Origin: a virus
IMG/VR virus record: IMGVR_UViG_3300033994_001756
Coordinates: 62,001 to 126,000 of that record
Length of the DNA: 64,000 bases
Reading direction: 5' to 3' (one strand)
Shown here in pieces: positions 6,111 through 26,114 of this stretch. The notes beneath the pieces are model-generated. The model was not told the origin of the DNA. It ran no database searches and saw only the letters and a program-made list of their open reading frames with translations. How positions within the stretch are numbered: position 1 is the first letter of the stretch; each line of letters starts with the position of its first letter. A program made the position numbers and the translations under genes.

Positions 6111-7809
6111 GACTGTAACATACTCTAATTTTCTTGCAGTTGGTAATACTCCGATCACTGTCAATCTAAATGATTCCAATACTACACTCATAATTGGATC
6201 TAACGGTGCTGGTAAAAGTACAGTCATTGAGGCAATCATATTTGCACTGTTCAACAAGTCCTTTCGCAAGGTCAATAAAAACCAGTTAATTAACTCTATA
6301 AATGAGAAGGACTGTAAAGTAGACCTAGAGTTCAATATAGGATCAAAAGAATACCGTATTATTCGTGGACTGAAACCAAACATCTTTGAGATTTGGATTG
6401 ATGGTAAACTTCTAGATCAAGTTGCGGCTGCCTCCGATCAGCAAAAGTATCTGGAGCAAAACATCCTAAAGCTAAATTACAAATCATTTACTCAGATTGT
6501 AATTTTGGGATCCAGCACCTTTGTTCCTTTCATGCAACTTCCTGCAGCGCATCGTAGAGAAATTATTGAAGATCTTCTAGACATTCGTATCTTCTCGACA
6601 ATGAATGTCATTCTAAAAGATCGAATTAAAACCAATAATGATAACATCAAAACTTTTGAGACTGAGATTCAGTTTTTAAAAGAAAAGGTTGGAATGCAAA
6701 AGGATCACATTGATTATATTACCAGTCAGTCTCAGAAAAATATTGATGATAAAAAATCTCAAATACTAGATTACGAAGTGCAAATTAAAGATTGCAATGA
6801 GACCTACGATAAACTTTGCCAAGAGCTAGAAGTAAAACAGCAAGAACTCTCATCCCTTCCAAAAATTAATATCAAAGATCTAGAAAAATATAAGACTAAA
6901 TTCTCAACTAAACTATCTGATTATACTACCAATATCCAGTTTTATAATGAGAATGATGTATGCCCAACTTGTCAGCAAGATTTGACAGAAGAAGTTAAGA
7001 AAACTCATATCTCAAAATGCAACACTGAGATTGAAAAACTTGAATCTGCAATTCAAGAAGTCGAAACCAAGATTAAAGAATCTCAAATTATTATTGATAA
7101 ATCTCAAGAGATCTTGACAGATATAAATGATTTAAATGTAAAGATTGCTTCTCAAAATTACAACTGCAAAAGTCTTCAGAAGTTTATTGATGCATTAAAT
7201 GATGAAATTCAAAAAATCAATGAAACCGACAAAGACATTGCAACTGAAAAGCAAAAGCTAACCACACTTGCTTCTGAGGGAGTAGTATTAAAGAAGCAAG
7301 TGGACAAGATGAAGAATAATAAAACCTATTATGAAATTGTCTCAACTTTATTGAAAGATACTGGAATTAAATCCAAGATCATCAAGAAATATCTACCAGT
7401 GATGAATCAACTCATTAACAAGTATCTTCAGTTGATGGACTTCTATGTAAACTTCAATCTCGATGAGAACTTTGAAGAAACTATCAAATCTAGATTTAGG
7501 GATGAATTTAGTTACACTTCATTCTCAGAAGGCGAGAAAATGAGAATTGACTTAGCCTTGATGTTTACATGGAGGGCAGTTGCTAAACTAAAGAATTCAG
7601 CAAGCACAAATTTACTTATCCTAGACGAAGTGTTTGATAGTTCTCTAGATACATCTGGCACTGAAGATTTTCTAAAGATACTTCGTGGAATTGATAGTGA
7701 TACAAATGTATTTGTAATCTCTCATAAAGGTGACATGCTACATGATAAGTTTGAGAAAGTTCTTCAATTTGAAAAAGTCAAGAATTTCAGTAAAGTAAAA
7801 GAGCTATAA
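6097..7809 (+). CDS. 46: gp46 recombination nuclease (SbcC/Rad50 family)
   Basis: 570 residues, matching T4 gp46 (560). Walker A G-S-N-G-A-G-K-S-T is at residues 34-42. Long coiled-coil arms flank a zinc hook C-P-T-C at about 289-292. The signature segment F-S-E-G-E-K-M-R-I and the Walker B L-I-L-D-E-V-F-D (around residue 510) are near the C-terminus. It forms the ATPase of the gp46/gp47 end-resection complex. Confidence 0.96.
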   Translation: MILFKTVTYSNFLAVGNTPITVNLNDSNTTLIIGSNGAGKSTVIEAIIFALFNKSFRKVNKNQLINSINEKDCKVDLEFNIGSKEYRIIRGLKPNIFEIWIDGKLLDQVAAASDQQKYLEQNILKLNYKSFTQIVILGSSTFVPFMQLPAAHRREIIEDLLDIRIFSTMNVILKDRIKTNNDNIKTFETEIQFLKEKVGMQKDHIDYITSQSQKNIDDKKSQILDYEVQIKDCNETYDKLCQELEVKQQELSSLPKINIKDLEKYKTKFSTKLSDYTTNIQFYNENDVCPTCQQDLTEEVKKTHISKCNTEIEKLESAIQEVETKIKESQIIIDKSQEILTDINDLNVKIASQNYNCKSLQKFIDALNDEIQKINETDKDIATEKQKLTTLASEGVVLKKQVDKMKNNKTYYEIVSTLLKDTGIKSKIIKKYLPVMNQLINKYLQLMDFYVNFNLDENFEETIKSRFRDEFSYTSFSEGEKMRIDLALMFTWRAVAKLKNSASTNLLILDEVFDSSLDTSGTEDFLKILRGIDSDTNVFVISHKGDMLHDKFEKVLQFEKVKNFSKVKEL

Positions 7810-7831
7810 GCAATCCTTATGGTCCATCCCA

Positions 7832-7860
7832 TTGACATGGTGGGGTGGACCTGTTACTAT
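7832..7860 (+). promoter_or_regulatory. Sigma70-type promoter for the VWA/MoxR module
   Basis: TTGACA, 17-bp spacer, TACTAT. It lies 24 bp before the start at 7884, in the short gap after gp46. Confidence 0.75.
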
Positions 7861-7883
7861 ATGAGGACTGAATTGAGGCACCT

Positions 7884-10043
7884 ATGTCCGACATCAAACA
7901 GTCCAAGAGTATTCTTGCTAAACTTTTGGCAACAGAAAACCTTACTGTTGAACATCGTTCTGTTCCCACTGCAAGCTTCGATACTCACAATCGTGTGCTG
8001 ACTCTTCCTATTTGGGAAGGTACTTCTAACGATGTATATGACCTTCTTGTTGGTCATGAAGTTGGTCATGCCATCTATACTCCAGATCTATATGGTAGTG
8101 ATCTAAATCTTCCTCAGGGATATCTGAATGTGGTTGAGGATGCTCGCATCGAGAAGTTGATGAAGCGTAAGTATCCTGGTCTTGCTCGTTCATTTTATCG
8201 TGGATACTCAGAACTGAATGATCAGGACTTCTTTGAGATTGATTCTATTGATGTTAATGAACTGAAGTTTATTGATAAAATCAATCTCCACTTCAAACTT
8301 GGCAACGTCCATGCTGGAGTGTTTATTAACTTTACTCCAGAAGAGCAGGTATTTATTGGTAAAATTGCCAATGCAGAAACCTTTGAAGATGTAGTAAATA
8401 TTGTAAAAGAACTAGTAGAGCATACTGAAAAACAAGTTGAACTTCAACTGTCTTCTGCCACAGGAAACTCACTTGAAGGTGAAGGAGAACAGTCTGAATC
8501 TCAGGAGAATCAAAGTTCTGAAAGTAACGTAAGTGATAGTGAGAATCAGACTTCTGCTCAATCTGATTGCGATAATAAAGAAGATGCTCCTAAGGAATCT
8601 ACTCCTAAGGAATCTACTCCATCTTCTTCCAACAACTCTGGGAAGCAAGCAGATTTTACTTCTGATACAGATAAGGCATGGTCTAAAAATCAACAACAAC
8701 TTGCTAGTCTTACTGGCGACACCTACATCTATCTGACTCCACCATCTATTGATATTGATAATCATCTTCTTCCCTGGAAAGAATGTGTCAAAGATCTTCC
8801 TAAGATTTTCACAAGCATGATTGATTATGCTAATCAGTCTGGGTATAAAAGCAAAAGTTATTACAAGAGCATGTTTGATAGAGCAGAGAGTAACTATAAA
8901 AATTACAAGGATGATTGTAAGAAGTCTGTATCATATCTGATTAAAGAATTTGAAATGAAAAAGCGAGCAACTGAATACAATCGGTCTGCTACCGCTGGAA
9001 CTGGTGTTCTTGATACCAACAAAATGCATTCCTATAAGTGGAATGATGATATCTTCAAGAAGGTAACTGTAGTTCCTAAAGGTAAGTCTCATGGTCTAAT
9101 CATGTATCTTGACTGGTCTGGTTCCATGCAAGGAAACCTAGTAGGTACTATCAAGCAACTGTTCAATCTGATTCAGTTCTGCAAAAAAGTACAGATTCCC
9201 TTTGAAGTGTATTCCTTCAATGACAGGAATACCGCAAAGAATTATAATCAAATATCTCGCAGTAAGAAATTATCCGTAAAGGAAAATCAAATTTTTATCA
9301 ATAATGATTTCCTTCTTGTGAATTTGCTGAGCAGTAAAATGAATACTGCTCAACTGGATAGTCAGATGAAGAATCTCTGGAAACTTGCACATGCTCTAGA
9401 TCTGCAATCATATCTAACTACTGAGTATACTCATTATGATCTAGGTAGCACTCCTTTGAATGAATGCGTATTTGCAGCGATTGATGTGTTTGATAAATTC
9501 AAGAAAACTTATAAAGTAGATAAAGTTAACACAGTTTTCTTGACTGATGGGGAATCTAACTCAGTTGCATACAATCGTTCAACTTATGGTAATACGAACA
9601 TTGTTCATTCTGGTTGGCTAAGTGCAAATGAAATTCTATGTCTTCAGGACAAGAAAAACAAAATTACTATGATGAATATCAGTAAAAATGGAAGTATGGG
9701 AATTACCAGTGCATTTGTAGATTACTATCGTCAAATCACTGGATCAAATGCTGTAGGATTCCGACTTATTGATTTCTATGGTGCCAAGTCTTTTGTTGCT
9801 CGATATCTAAAAGATGAGTTTTCAAATTGGACTGCAGTATCTTCCGAGTGGGCAAAAACTAGGTCATTTACTGCAACTTCTTTGGGGTACAACGAACTCT
9901 ACTTTATTGAGATCGGCAATAGTACTCCCACAGACATTGCCCCTGCAATCCCAGCAAATCCGTTGACCGCATTCAAAACTCAAATGAGTAAGAAGGCTTT
10001 CAATAAGATCATCTTATCGAAATTCATCGAGCAAATCGCTTGA
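7884..10043 (+). CDS. VWA-domain protein with N-terminal zincin-like metallopeptidase domain (CobT/DUF2201-like)
   Basis: 719 residues in three parts. The N-terminal part carries H-E-V-G-H (residues 58-62) followed about 25 residues later by V-V-E-D-A-R-I-E-K-L, the arrangement of a zinc metallopeptidase with a downstream Glu ligand. Residues about 195-260 are a low-complexity Ser/Glu/Asn-rich acidic linker. The C-terminal half is a von Willebrand A domain with a MIDAS D-W-S-G-S near 410 and T-D-G-E-S near 554. CobT, the VWA subunit of aerobic cobaltochelatase, has the same acidic-linker plus VWA plan, and the next gene is usually called cobS in cyanophages. No CobN-like large subunit is seen. 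The pair may work as an AAA+ remodelling or protease machine. Exact role unknown. Confidence 0.75.
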   Translation: MSDIKQSKSILAKLLATENLTVEHRSVPTASFDTHNRVLTLPIWEGTSNDVYDLLVGHEVGHAIYTPDLYGSDLNLPQGYLNVVEDARIEKLMKRKYPGLARSFYRGYSELNDQDFFEIDSIDVNELKFIDKINLHFKLGNVHAGVFINFTPEEQVFIGKIANAETFEDVVNIVKELVEHTEKQVELQLSSATGNSLEGEGEQSESQENQSSESNVSDSENQTSAQSDCDNKEDAPKESTPKESTPSSSNNSGKQADFTSDTDKAWSKNQQQLASLTGDTYIYLTPPSIDIDNHLLPWKECVKDLPKIFTSMIDYANQSGYKSKSYYKSMFDRAESNYKNYKDDCKKSVSYLIKEFEMKKRATEYNRSATAGTGVLDTNKMHSYKWNDDIFKKVTVVPKGKSHGLIMYLDWSGSMQGNLVGTIKQLFNLIQFCKKVQIPFEVYSFNDRNTAKNYNQISRSKKLSVKENQIFINNDFLLVNLLSSKMNTAQLDSQMKNLWKLAHALDLQSYLTTEYTHYDLGSTPLNECVFAAIDVFDKFKKTYKVDKVNTVFLTDGESNSVAYNRSTYGNTNIVHSGWLSANEILCLQDKKNKITMMNISKNGSMGITSAFVDYYRQITGSNAVGFRLIDFYGAKSFVARYLKDEFSNWTAVSSEWAKTRSFTATSLGYNELYFIEIGNSTPTDIAPAIPANPLTAFKTQMSKKAFNKIILSKFIEQIA

Positions 10044-10068
10044 CACCCCACTCCTTTTGCCCTATACT
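10040..10068 (+). promoter_or_regulatory. Sigma70-type promoter for the MoxR ATPase
   Basis: TTGACA, 17-bp spacer, TATACT. The -35 box overlaps the stop codon of the VWA gene, so the ATPase can be transcribed on its own. Confidence 0.8.
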
Positions 10069-10097
10069 ACTTTCATACCAAACGAGGTAACTTCATT

Positions 10098-11204
10098 ATG
10101 ACTCAAATGATTGATCAGCTTGTTCAAAACCTGACTGCTCTTTACGGCGAAACTGTGACTCGCCAACAACTGATTGAATATGCTGCAAACTCAAACACTT
10201 CCCTTGCAACTATTTGCAAGACACTTGAACCTAACAAATCTGGTCGTGGAGTCTGGAATTTGACTGTAACTGAACAACTTGAAAAGACCTTTAATTCTAT
10301 GTCTGCAACTCCTGCTACACCTGTAGTTAGCTTCATTCCCCAGAAAGACAAAAACTATGTCTCGTTTGGCAACTTCAGTGATGTGAAGCGAATTGTCAAG
10401 TCTGGGATGTTCTATCCTGTTTTCATCACTGGTCTTTCTGGTAACGGTAAAACTGTCAGCGTGGAGCAAGCTTGTGCTCACCTGAAGCGTGAACTGATTC
10501 GTGTCAACATCACTATTGAGACCGATGAGGATGATCTGCTGGGTGGCTTCCGACTTGTTGATGGGGAAACCGTATGGCATGATGGTCCTGTAGTCAATGC
10601 CCTGAAGCGTGGTGCAGTCCTTCTGCTTGATGAGATCGACCTTGCTTCTAACAAGATCATGTGTCTACAGTCTGTGCTAGAAGGTAAGGGTGTTTTTCTA
10701 AAGAAGATCAACCAGTATGTAACTCCCACTGCTGGCTTCAACGTCATCGCCACTGCCAACACCAAAGGTAAAGGTTCTGATGATGGTCGTTTCATTGGCA
10801 CCAACGTGATGAACGAAGCATTCCTTGAGCGTTTCCCCATCACGTTTGAGCAACCTTATCCTTCTATGGCGACTGAGAAAAAGATTCTCATGAACCTGAT
10901 GAACTCTTTTGAAGTTGTTGATGAAGAGTTTGTTGACAAGCTGATTGTCTGGGCAGATACTATTCGTAAGACCTTCTATGATGGTGGCGTAGATGAAATC
11001 ATCACCACTCGTCGTCTGGTTCATATCGTTCAGTCATTTGCTATCTTTAAGAATCGCAAGAAGGCTATCAATGTTTGTATCAATCGTTTTGATGATGACA
11101 CCAAGAGTTCCTTCCTAGATCTCTACAAGAACATTGATGCTTCTGCTCTAGATACCACTGAGGAAAGTGTGGTAGATCAAGAAGCACTTGACAGCTCTAT
11201 CTGA
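10098..11204 (+). CDS. cobS: MoxR/CobS-type AAA+ ATPase
   Basis: 368 residues. Walker A G-L-S-G-N-G-K-T is at 112-119, Walker B L-L-L-D-E-I-D at about 175-181, sensor 1 N-V-I-A-T-A-N-T near 214, and an arginine-finger type segment E-A-F-L-E-R-F near 238. This is the AAA+ architecture of MoxR and CobS proteins. In cyanomyoviruses the gene is conventionally annotated cobS (cobaltochelatase small subunit). The symbol follows that convention; chelatase activity is unproven. MoxR-type ATPases pair with VWA proteins, and the gene directly upstream encodes one, so the two probably form one complex. The N-terminal 90 residues are a small helical domain. Confidence 0.85.
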   Translation: MTQMIDQLVQNLTALYGETVTRQQLIEYAANSNTSLATICKTLEPNKSGRGVWNLTVTEQLEKTFNSMSATPATPVVSFIPQKDKNYVSFGNFSDVKRIVKSGMFYPVFITGLSGNGKTVSVEQACAHLKRELIRVNITIETDEDDLLGGFRLVDGETVWHDGPVVNALKRGAVLLLDEIDLASNKIMCLQSVLEGKGVFLKKINQYVTPTAGFNVIATANTKGKGSDDGRFIGTNVMNEAFLERFPITFEQPYPSMATEKKILMNLMNSFEVVDEEFVDKLIVWADTIRKTFYDGGVDEIITTRRLVHIVQSFAIFKNRKKAINVCINRFDDDTKSSFLDLYKNIDASALDTTEESVVDQEALDSSI

Positions 11205-21531: not shown

Positions 21532-21538
21532 CTAAATA
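21532..21538 (+). promoter_or_regulatory. Putative late promoter CTAAATA
   Basis: CTAAATA 24 bp before the start of a putatively packaged protein; identical to the elements before gp3 and gp26. Confidence 0.6.
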
Positions 21539-21562: not shown

Positions 21563-22756
21563 ATGAAAACTTTTAGGCAATTTATAACAGAAGCACGAAC
21601 TCCTGCGGGAAAGGAAGCGGAGAAAAAAGGTCTTGCCCATGCAGGAAAAGGATATTACACTGACGCTAAGGGAAACGTTGTAGCCAAGAGTGAAAAGGGT
21701 GGACAGAAGCTAGTACCTATTTCAAAGGAAGATAAGAAGAAGTTAAAAGATGGTAAACCTCTTATGGGACCATCTTCTGTTGCAGACATGCAAAACATGT
21801 CTCAACCACCACAACCCCAGTCACAATCACCAGAAACCACTGCAGAACAACCTCCAGAGCAACTTGAGCCTGGTGATGGTCCTGCAGTGGTTATTACTTT
21901 TGGAAGATTTAATCCCCCTTCAATTGGGCATGAAAACCTCATCAATGCGGTTCAGGAACAGGCAGAAGAACTGGAAGCAGAGTATAGAATTTATCCAAGT
22001 AGAACATCAGATAAAAAGCAGAATCCGTTAGACTTCAAAACCAAGTATAATATTCTCCAGCATGTATTCACCGATCATGCAGAGAATATTATCAATGATC
22101 CCGAAAATGGAGATAATATTTACGACATTCTGACTTCACTGCATGATGAAGGATATCACCATGTAGTCATTATGTGCGGTGACGAAAATGTTCAAAAGTA
22201 TGAAAAGATTGCACAAAAATATAATGGTACAGTTTACGATTTCTATGGAGTAGAAGTTGTTGGTGCTGGAATGCCAGATCCAGATAATGATAAATCTGAA
22301 GGCATTACAAGTTCTATGATGCGTAAGTCAGCACTTGAAAATGATTACGAGACATTCAAGCAAGGTCTTCCCGGCAATGTAAGTAAAAAGGAATGCCGTG
22401 CAATCTATAGTCAAGTTCGTAAGTCTATGAGTTTGAAGGAAGAACTTTGGATGATCGCTCCAAATCTAGATAGTAGCAATCTTCGTGAAGAATACTATCA
22501 AGGTAATATTTACAATCTCGGTGAGCATGTAATAGATTCAGTTACTGGCATATCTGGAAAGATTGTTACCAGAGGATCTAACTATGTAATCTTTGTAGAT
22601 GAGCAAAAGAAAATTCACCGTACATGGATTAAAGATCTAAGCTATCATCCAGGTCCACTTGAAATTGGAACTGATGATTACAGAGAATATCTACAACGAA
22701 TGCATCCTACCGAGCCAGTTAAGTCATTTACTAAAGGTAAGCGAAAAGATAAATAA
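21563..22756 (+). CDS. NMN-adenylyltransferase-like protein with capsid-targeting N-terminus
   Basis: 397 residues from the ATG at 21563. The first eleven residues, M-K-T-F-R-Q-F-I-T-E-A, closely match the T4 capsid-targeting sequence M-K-T-Y-Q-E-F-I-A-E-A of internal head proteins, including the prohead-protease pattern I-x-E/A. A Lys-rich segment and a Pro/Gln linker (about 70-105) follow. A nucleotidyltransferase domain then starts with T-F-G-R-F-N-P-P-S-I-G-H (112-123) and ends with an I-T-S-S-M-M-R motif near 250, the HIGH and ISSTxxR signatures of NadM-like enzymes. A C-terminal SH3-like tail with V-T-G-I-S-G-K-I-V-T-R follows. It is probably packaged in the head; the substrate is not certain. 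Confidence 0.78.
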   Translation: MKTFRQFITEARTPAGKEAEKKGLAHAGKGYYTDAKGNVVAKSEKGGQKLVPISKEDKKKLKDGKPLMGPSSVADMQNMSQPPQPQSQSPETTAEQPPEQLEPGDGPAVVITFGRFNPPSIGHENLINAVQEQAEELEAEYRIYPSRTSDKKQNPLDFKTKYNILQHVFTDHAENIINDPENGDNIYDILTSLHDEGYHHVVIMCGDENVQKYEKIAQKYNGTVYDFYGVEVVGAGMPDPDNDKSEGITSSMMRKSALENDYETFKQGLPGNVSKKECRAIYSQVRKSMSLKEELWMIAPNLDSSNLREEYYQGNIYNLGEHVIDSVTGISGKIVTRGSNYVIFVDEQKKIHRTWIKDLSYHPGPLEIGTDDYREYLQRMHPTEPVKSFTKGKRKDK

Positions 22757-25511: not shown

Positions 25512-26114
25512 ATGTCTTTATACGGAAGAACTGACTCTAACGCAAACAAGACCAAAGTTGAAAGAACTATTGCTCCTTCATCCCAGGCTAAAACTATTGT
25601 TTTTGTTGATGAAACTGAGGCTCGTTTAAACGAAAACCGTCAGCGTGGTATTGATGGTCCTGGCTGGTGGGCGTATTTTACCTATACTGATAATGCAGGG
25701 AATACTCGCCACAAGGCAGAGAAGCTAGTTGCACTTGGAAATCCAGATACTACTGAAACTCAGGCTGATGACGCTATTGTAGCTGACGTTGCATCTTCAG
25801 TAACAATTAATGTTGCATATCCACAGAATGCTACTACAACATCTGGCGGGGCAACATTTACTGTATCTGGACAAACTACTACCACTGGAACTCCAGGAAC
25901 TTTACTATACCAGTGGCAAATTCAAACCCCAACTGGTACTCGTTGGACCAACCTAACAAATACTGGAATTTACACTGGTTCTACCACTCATACCCTAACT
26001 TTAACTGGAGCAACATCTGCAGTTTCTGGAAGTAAGTATAGAGTAAAAATCACCTCTACTGGTGGTACTGAAGAAGTAATTTCTAGAACTGCCACACTAA
26101 CATTTGGAACCTGA
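25512..26114 (+). CDS. Ig-like domain virion protein
   Basis: 200 residues. N-terminal part (about 1-90) starts M-S-L-Y-G-R-T-D-S-N-A-N-K and contains G-P-G-W-W-A-Y; the C-terminal part (about 95-200) is Thr/Ser/Gly-rich with the strand pattern of a bacterial Ig-like domain, including L-L-Y-Q-W-Q-I-Q near 136 and S-G-S-K-Y-R-V-K-I-T near 178. Ig-like domains decorate phage heads and tails and may bind carbohydrate. Strong late promoter and AGAGG site precede it. I judge it a structural protein; the exact position in the virion is unknown. Confidence 0.75.
   Translation: MSLYGRTDSNANKTKVERTIAPSSQAKTIVFVDETEARLNENRQRGIDGPGWWAYFTYTDNAGNTRHKAEKLVALGNPDTTETQADDAIVADVASSVTINVAYPQNATTTSGGATFTVSGQTTTTGTPGTLLYQWQIQTPTGTRWTNLTNTGIYTGSTTHTLTLTGATSAVSGSKYRVKITSTGGTEEVISRTATLTFGT

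Follow-up and report, generated by a model that had tools for sequence, protein, structure and literature searches.

The internal proteins of bacteriophage T4 carry a capsid-targeting sequence, are processed by gp21 and are injected into the host. An open reading frame in a T4-like cyanophage raises the question of whether the same route may serve enzymes, as its 397-residue product begins MKTFRQFITEARTPAGKEAEKKGLAHAGKGYY and joins a T4-like N-terminus to an adenylyltransferase-like domain. The frame lies in the window, the whole stretch of 64,000 nucleotides analysed here, which corresponds to positions 62001-126000 of a 172,253-base IMG/VR record. This record encodes gp43, UvsX, gp41, MazG and psbA (named by sequence resemblance), and the virus infects marine cyanobacteria. 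With good confidence, we interpret the protein as an internal head protein of the T4 type that carries an enzyme of adenylyltransferase fold as its payload, and that would be packaged in the core, cut by a gp21-like protease and injected.

The N-terminal signal and its T4 counterpart

The N-terminus of T4 IPII/IPIII is MKTYQEFIAEA (from NC_000866). The earlier note counted eight of eleven residues as matching T4; seven are identical (positions 1, 2, 3, 7, 8, 10 and 11), while the eighth holds only as a conservative F/Y exchange at position 4. According to a 2022 review, mutagenesis of the T4 signal showed that residues 4 and 7 control targeting and residues 8 and 10 processing, and the gp21 cleavage motif is L/I-X-E (PMC9026906). 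The cyanophage protein has an aromatic F at both positions 4 and 7, and the protease pattern is kept as claimed, I8-T9-E10/A11 fitting the gp21 motif. It thus resembles T4 IPI, IPII and IPIII in its 10-11-residue N-terminal signal and in the determinants F4/F7, I8 and E10/A11. As in the T4 system, the phage also possesses a gp21-like protease and a gp22-like scaffold. Unlike the small, basic T4 proteins, it carries a larger, conserved enzyme payload with extra modules, is found family-wide in cyanophages, and has a cleavage and injection that are predicted.

Because the conserved residues F4, F7, [IL]8 and E10 coincide with those governing targeting and processing in T4, the signal is not a product of chance. 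Its strict form occurs at three gene starts in the phage's own genome, where shuffled N-termini would give 0.003, and at none of 632 internal ATGs. When IMG/VR was scanned by exact codons for M-K-x-F-x-x-F-h-x-E-A, 78 of 82 sampled sequences among the matches listed lay at gene starts. Two control patterns, one with E10 changed to D and one with an extra spacing residue, each gave 49 matches in the whole collection, with 18 and 15 of these, respectively, at gene starts. A chance origin of the N-terminus was ruled out by the shuffled expectation, the internal-ATG count and the codon-pattern controls together. A misannotated start was likewise dismissed, given the conserved N-terminal peptide and the ATG with its TAAATA-containing upstream block, conserved in 22 loci (L001-L022).

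The layout of the protein is summarized in Table 1. A structure model built from 40 sequences (the window and locus sequences) places a helix at residues 4-11 and, at about 25-52, a small module of beta structure; the nucleotidyltransferase domain spans 107-293, and an SH3-like module, also present in other cyanophage proteins, lies at 320-361. Within the disordered linker, residues 71-100 have pLDDT below 50. The pN/pS ratio is 0.13 for the signal, 0.54 for the linker and 0.10 for the nucleotidyltransferase domain. The second N-terminal module, residues 12-62, has the consensus ..A..A..LGL..GHG.W.D..G..VAKT..G.L.., with the form A..A..LGL..DGHGGW.D..G.FVAKT..G.LK in relatives. Behind the signal, it is found again in the kinase of S-CREM2 and in Cas9-like proteins (S-CREM2 gp12/gp14, S-CRM01, MA01, ACG-2014f), and it may contribute to packaging or bind DNA or the core.

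Table 1. Features of the locus and of related genes. Coordinates without a prefix are those of the window; G000:C1 is the source phage record, and L numbers denote other loci.
Feature	Coordinates	Strand	Basis or remark
TAAATA core of T4-type late promoter (CCTAAATAATAGATGTAGAAC)	21533..21538	+	30 nt before ATG; conserved in the window's clade
Adenylyltransferase-like ORF	21563-22756	+	397 aa, ATG start
Predicted capsid-targeting sequence MKTFRQFITEA, codons 1-11	21563..21595	+	T4 comparison, homologue conservation
Second N-terminal module, codons 12-62	21596..21748	+	alignment, model strands 25-52
Linker, low-confidence and fast-evolving, codons 63-106	21749..21880	+	pLDDT, pN/pS
Nucleotidyl(adenylyl)transferase domain, codons 107-290	21881..22432	+	PF01467, PHROG_395, fold matches
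C-terminal region, codons 300-397, with SH3-like beta module (320-361)	22460..22753	+	PHROG_4808, PHROG_22379, model
Relative of S-SZBM1_136	25512-26114		clear relative
gp21-like protease gene	G000:C1:59989-60642		
Candidate head cargo	G000:C1:13844-14191	+	MITFKQFLEEA; outside window
Candidate head cargo	G000:C1:21953-22558	-	MKTFAQFLEEA; outside window
Candidate head cargo	G000:C1:22561-23196	-	MKTYSEFLLES; outside window
G+C-rich segment	G000:C1:17000-22000		about 5 kb; outside window
Cas9/Csn1-annotated large protein	L037 (S-CREM2) 7704-10313; L247 5305-8247		signal and second module
Signal-bearing protein	L099 1211-1858	-	
Signal-bearing protein	L066 3736-4149	+	
DUF6267-type protein loci	L031 19040-20014; L033 1797-3576; L035 1326-2582; L051; L085; L122		

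Conservation of the signal in relatives

Relatives were gathered through the core peptide FGRFNPP[TS], and the best 80 of 595 candidates were kept by full-length similarity to the query. On the earlier note's reading, relatives would keep the signal, and it is present in 79 of the 79 homologues with a complete 5' end among these best 80 of 595, most of them 34-43% identical, although a full-length query ranking favours N-terminal similarity and the 80 are therefore not a random sample. In the 59 distinct N-termini of this set, K2 is found in 58, F4 in 54 (L/Y in the others), F7 in 59, L/I8 in 55, E10 in 59 and A/S11 in 58, with positions 3, 5, 6 and 9 free to vary. The exceptions are Syn1, whose copy lacks the signal, and S-PM2, where the end of the neighbouring gene is fused to this one and the signal is absent. 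In short members of this family (Melnitz MKKFSEIIEARGDTAVFTFGRFNPP, L053, L068 and L075) the enzyme begins directly after the signal, and the last three also carry a Zeta-toxin/polynucleotide-kinase-like P-loop domain fused to the adenylyltransferase. The jumbo phage Muenster has the enzyme domain alone, without the signal.

The enzyme family in virions

The earlier note's reading also implies that the protein would be found in purified virions. For relatives this is published in four isolates, the family having been detected in particles of S-SM1, S-SZBM1, S-SCSM1 and S-CREM2 (PMC3037559, PMC9146016, PMC9602691, PMC10665884). All four virion-positive copies bear the signal: MKKFSAFLNEA in S-SM1, MRFRQFIIEA in S-SZBM1, MKSFLQFLKEA in S-SCSM1 and MKNFSSFLTEA in S-CREM2. 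The signal-less family protein of S-PM2 was not detected in the published S-PM2 virion proteome, a weak negative given the lower sensitivity of that older proteome. In S-SZBM1, two of three signal-bearing proteins, both small, were not detected in a shallow proteome of 30. An NMNAT lacking the signal occurs in the virion of S-CBWM1, a phage that is not T4-like, so other routes into the virion exist. In the window, a gene near that of the enzyme encodes a clear relative of S-SZBM1_136, a virion-detected protein, indicating that the neighbourhood encodes virion components.

Detection in two of these proteomes, those of S-SZBM1 and S-CREM2, rests on only 2-3 peptides, which leaves room for an alternative in which the protein is an ordinary cytoplasmic late enzyme of auxiliary metabolism that sticks to virions, its N-terminus being a mere family feature. 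The authors of the S-CREM2 study did not exclude contamination by such enzymes and left the choice between cargo and contamination open (PMC10665884), and those of the S-SCSM1 study likewise name carry-over as a possibility. Yet this explanation, which we regard as improbable, accounts neither for a conservation pattern that tracks the T4 determinants nor for the sharing of the T4-type 10-residue motif by non-structural virion proteins as unrelated as a SAM hydrolase, a kinase and a Cas9-like protein.

Other proteins bearing the signal

The 219 N-termini of S-CREM2 were scored with an independent profile built from IMG/VR homologues. The six highest-ranked were gp154, gp14, gp136, gp199, gp13 and gp6. 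Five of these have been reported from the virion, and none of the five has a structural role (hypergeometric p 0.003, or 0.011 when the homologue is left out). A Mann-Whitney test on the ranks of all non-structural virion proteins of S-CREM2 gave no significant result (p 0.22), as would be expected if few virion proteins use the signal route; the information lies at the top of the ranking alone. The highest-ranked proteins include the SAM hydrolase, which begins MKDFDSFLEE, and the kinase, which begins MKRFDAFLTEE; the 'Cas9-like' protein has an internal signal, RFASFMAEA, at residues 18-26. A similar arrangement is seen in its relatives from MA01 and ACG-2014f and in a short N-terminal relative from S-CRM01. 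'Cas9-like' is the depositors' name only, as a Pfam search of the protein found no domain. The S-CRM01 kinase begins MISFDQFLSEK and has been reported in virions (PMC10665884). Judged by sequence, the signal argues for cargo, rather than contamination, in the case of the S-CREM2 virion enzymes.

The large Cas9/Csn1-annotated protein of S-CREM2 has both the signal and the second module, and its ACG-2014f relatives sit near the cytidyltransferase (L037 and L247 in Table 1). Three further proteins of the source phage start with the signal and are candidate head cargo (Table 1). The same record contains a segment of 50-61% G+C, against 37% for the genome, with unlikely-looking overlapping ORFs, which is either a foreign insert or a chimeric assembly. 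Signal-bearing proteins at L099 and L066 contain HYTSASN and YHGTPESS, which by eye recall ADP-ribosyltransferases; Pfam gave no match for either protein. Finally, a DUF6267-type protein with a ligase-like KWDG motif adjoins or joins the cytidyltransferase and sometimes has its own signal, which suggests a joint reaction; a search run without a positive control found no DUF6267 partner in the source record.

Enzyme family, fold and substrate

The protein belongs to the known family T4-GC190 / PHROG_395, the NMNAT-like virion protein of cyanophages, of which T4-GC190 was named by Sullivan et al. (PMC3037559). The PHROG_395 'cytidyltransferase' profile matches it with an E value of 1.8e-74 and PF01467 matches the nucleotidyltransferase domain at 5.2e-5; in 373 phage records the match spans 80% or more of the query. 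Relatives 36-40% identical occur in most T4-like cyanophages, where the gene is core. None of the defence-system models searched matched the 397-residue protein.

Both enzyme motifs described previously were recovered, T-F-G-R-F-N-P-P-S-I-G-H at residues 112-123 and I-T-S-S-M-M-R at 248-254. The (H/T)xGH motif has T/H in other clades and S in that of the window (SxGH). This substitution would suit an alternative in which the core-targeted protein assists head assembly and its nucleotidyltransferase domain is structural and non-catalytic, much as IPIII has been suggested, in the 2022 review, to help T4 head assembly (PMC9026906); however, G122, H123, R254 and nearby motif residues are invariant or almost so in 40 sequences, the pattern that a functioning active site would show, and the domain pN/pS is 0.10, leaving this reading very unlikely.

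The claim of an 'NAD-type or nucleotidyl-transferring' enzyme stands as regards the nucleotidyltransferase fold, with NAD-type activity one possibility among several. In the fold search, NMN, NaMN and phosphopantetheine adenylyltransferases were practically tied at Z of about 13 (PPAT and NMNAT 13.3 each). The protein shares the fold and the GRFNPPxxGH / SSxxR motifs with NadM, NadD and CoaD, but at about 15% identity and with no substrate-specific signature resolved. A sequence profile matches the M. jannaschii NMNAT weakly, and scores against the NCBIfam NMNAT models fall far under the cut-off. NMN, NaMN, phosphopantetheine or another compound are candidate substrates, with NMN adenylyltransfer as the true reaction somewhat short of an even chance. 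A complete NAD salvage pathway in the phage was set aside, since no NAPRTase/NAMPT-type gene was found in its record in a search that was positive in control genomes.

A proposed route from the infected cell to the next host

If the protein is an internal head protein, the enzyme would be made late in infection. The upstream sequence is consistent with such timing: TAAATA lies within 90 bp upstream in 53 of 79 homologues (from the best 80 of 595), versus 6.7% of random 90-bp stretches from the same loci. The 10-residue signal would then bring the enzyme into the prohead core, with F4 and F7 targeting it as in T4 IPIII, and a gp21-like protease would cut after I-T-E, between E10 and A11. The mature enzyme would remain in the head beside the DNA, enter the cyanobacterium at infection and act in its first minutes, for example in the supply of a nucleotide cofactor, possibly NAD. 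Core binding, cleavage at E10/A11, injection and the early function are steps that we infer.

Packaging by the T4-type signal, which the comparative evidence and the published proteomics of relatives support well, is very likely. Cleavage after E10 is also predicted and quite likely. In favour of the proposal, LTE/A is found near residue 50 of the major capsid protein in both S-SZBM1 and S-CREM2; counting against it, the major capsid protein of the source phage has VLSE/V where relatives show LTE/A. Injection may reasonably be expected. T4 Alt, an injected ADP-ribosyltransferase, is likewise a head-packaged enzyme delivered with the DNA, as is proposed here, although the cyanophage protein is of another enzyme class.

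Implications for T4-like cyanophages

Earlier work already covers capsid targeting in T4 as well as the enzyme family and its presence in virions, and the 2022 review proposes that T4-like phages use the signal to package a variety of proteins (PMC9026906). In the open literature searched, this review alone was found to mention both capsid targeting and cyanophages, and its signal section covers T4. The signal and second N-terminal module of the T4-GC190/PHROG_395 family were not found described there, nor was the T4 signal sequence itself printed in any open full text searched. Connecting the signal with this family, and with other virion enzymes as well, therefore appears new within the open literature, subscription literature lying outside the search.

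Cyanophage virion proteomes repeatedly contain non-structural enzymes, and their authors have been unable to tell whether these are cargo or contaminants. Here the signal, short, testable and with determinants known from T4, provides a mechanism and allows the proteins inside virions to be predicted. The published proteomics and the many relatives support the idea that such phages pack ready-made enzymes alongside their DNA for delivery to the host; if NAD-making, the present enzyme would be a ready-made cofactor supply, though no NAMPT/NAPRTase partner was found in the phage record. More broadly, the T4 head signal is probably a general address label across marine T4-like phages, loading varied enzymes that would be injected before phage gene expression. 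On that same reading, the cargo would include the adenylyltransferase (with some Zeta/polynucleotide-kinase-like fusions), S-adenosylmethionine hydrolase, a protein kinase, a large Cas9-like protein, and DUF6267, GNAT and deoxyribonucleotidase-like proteins.
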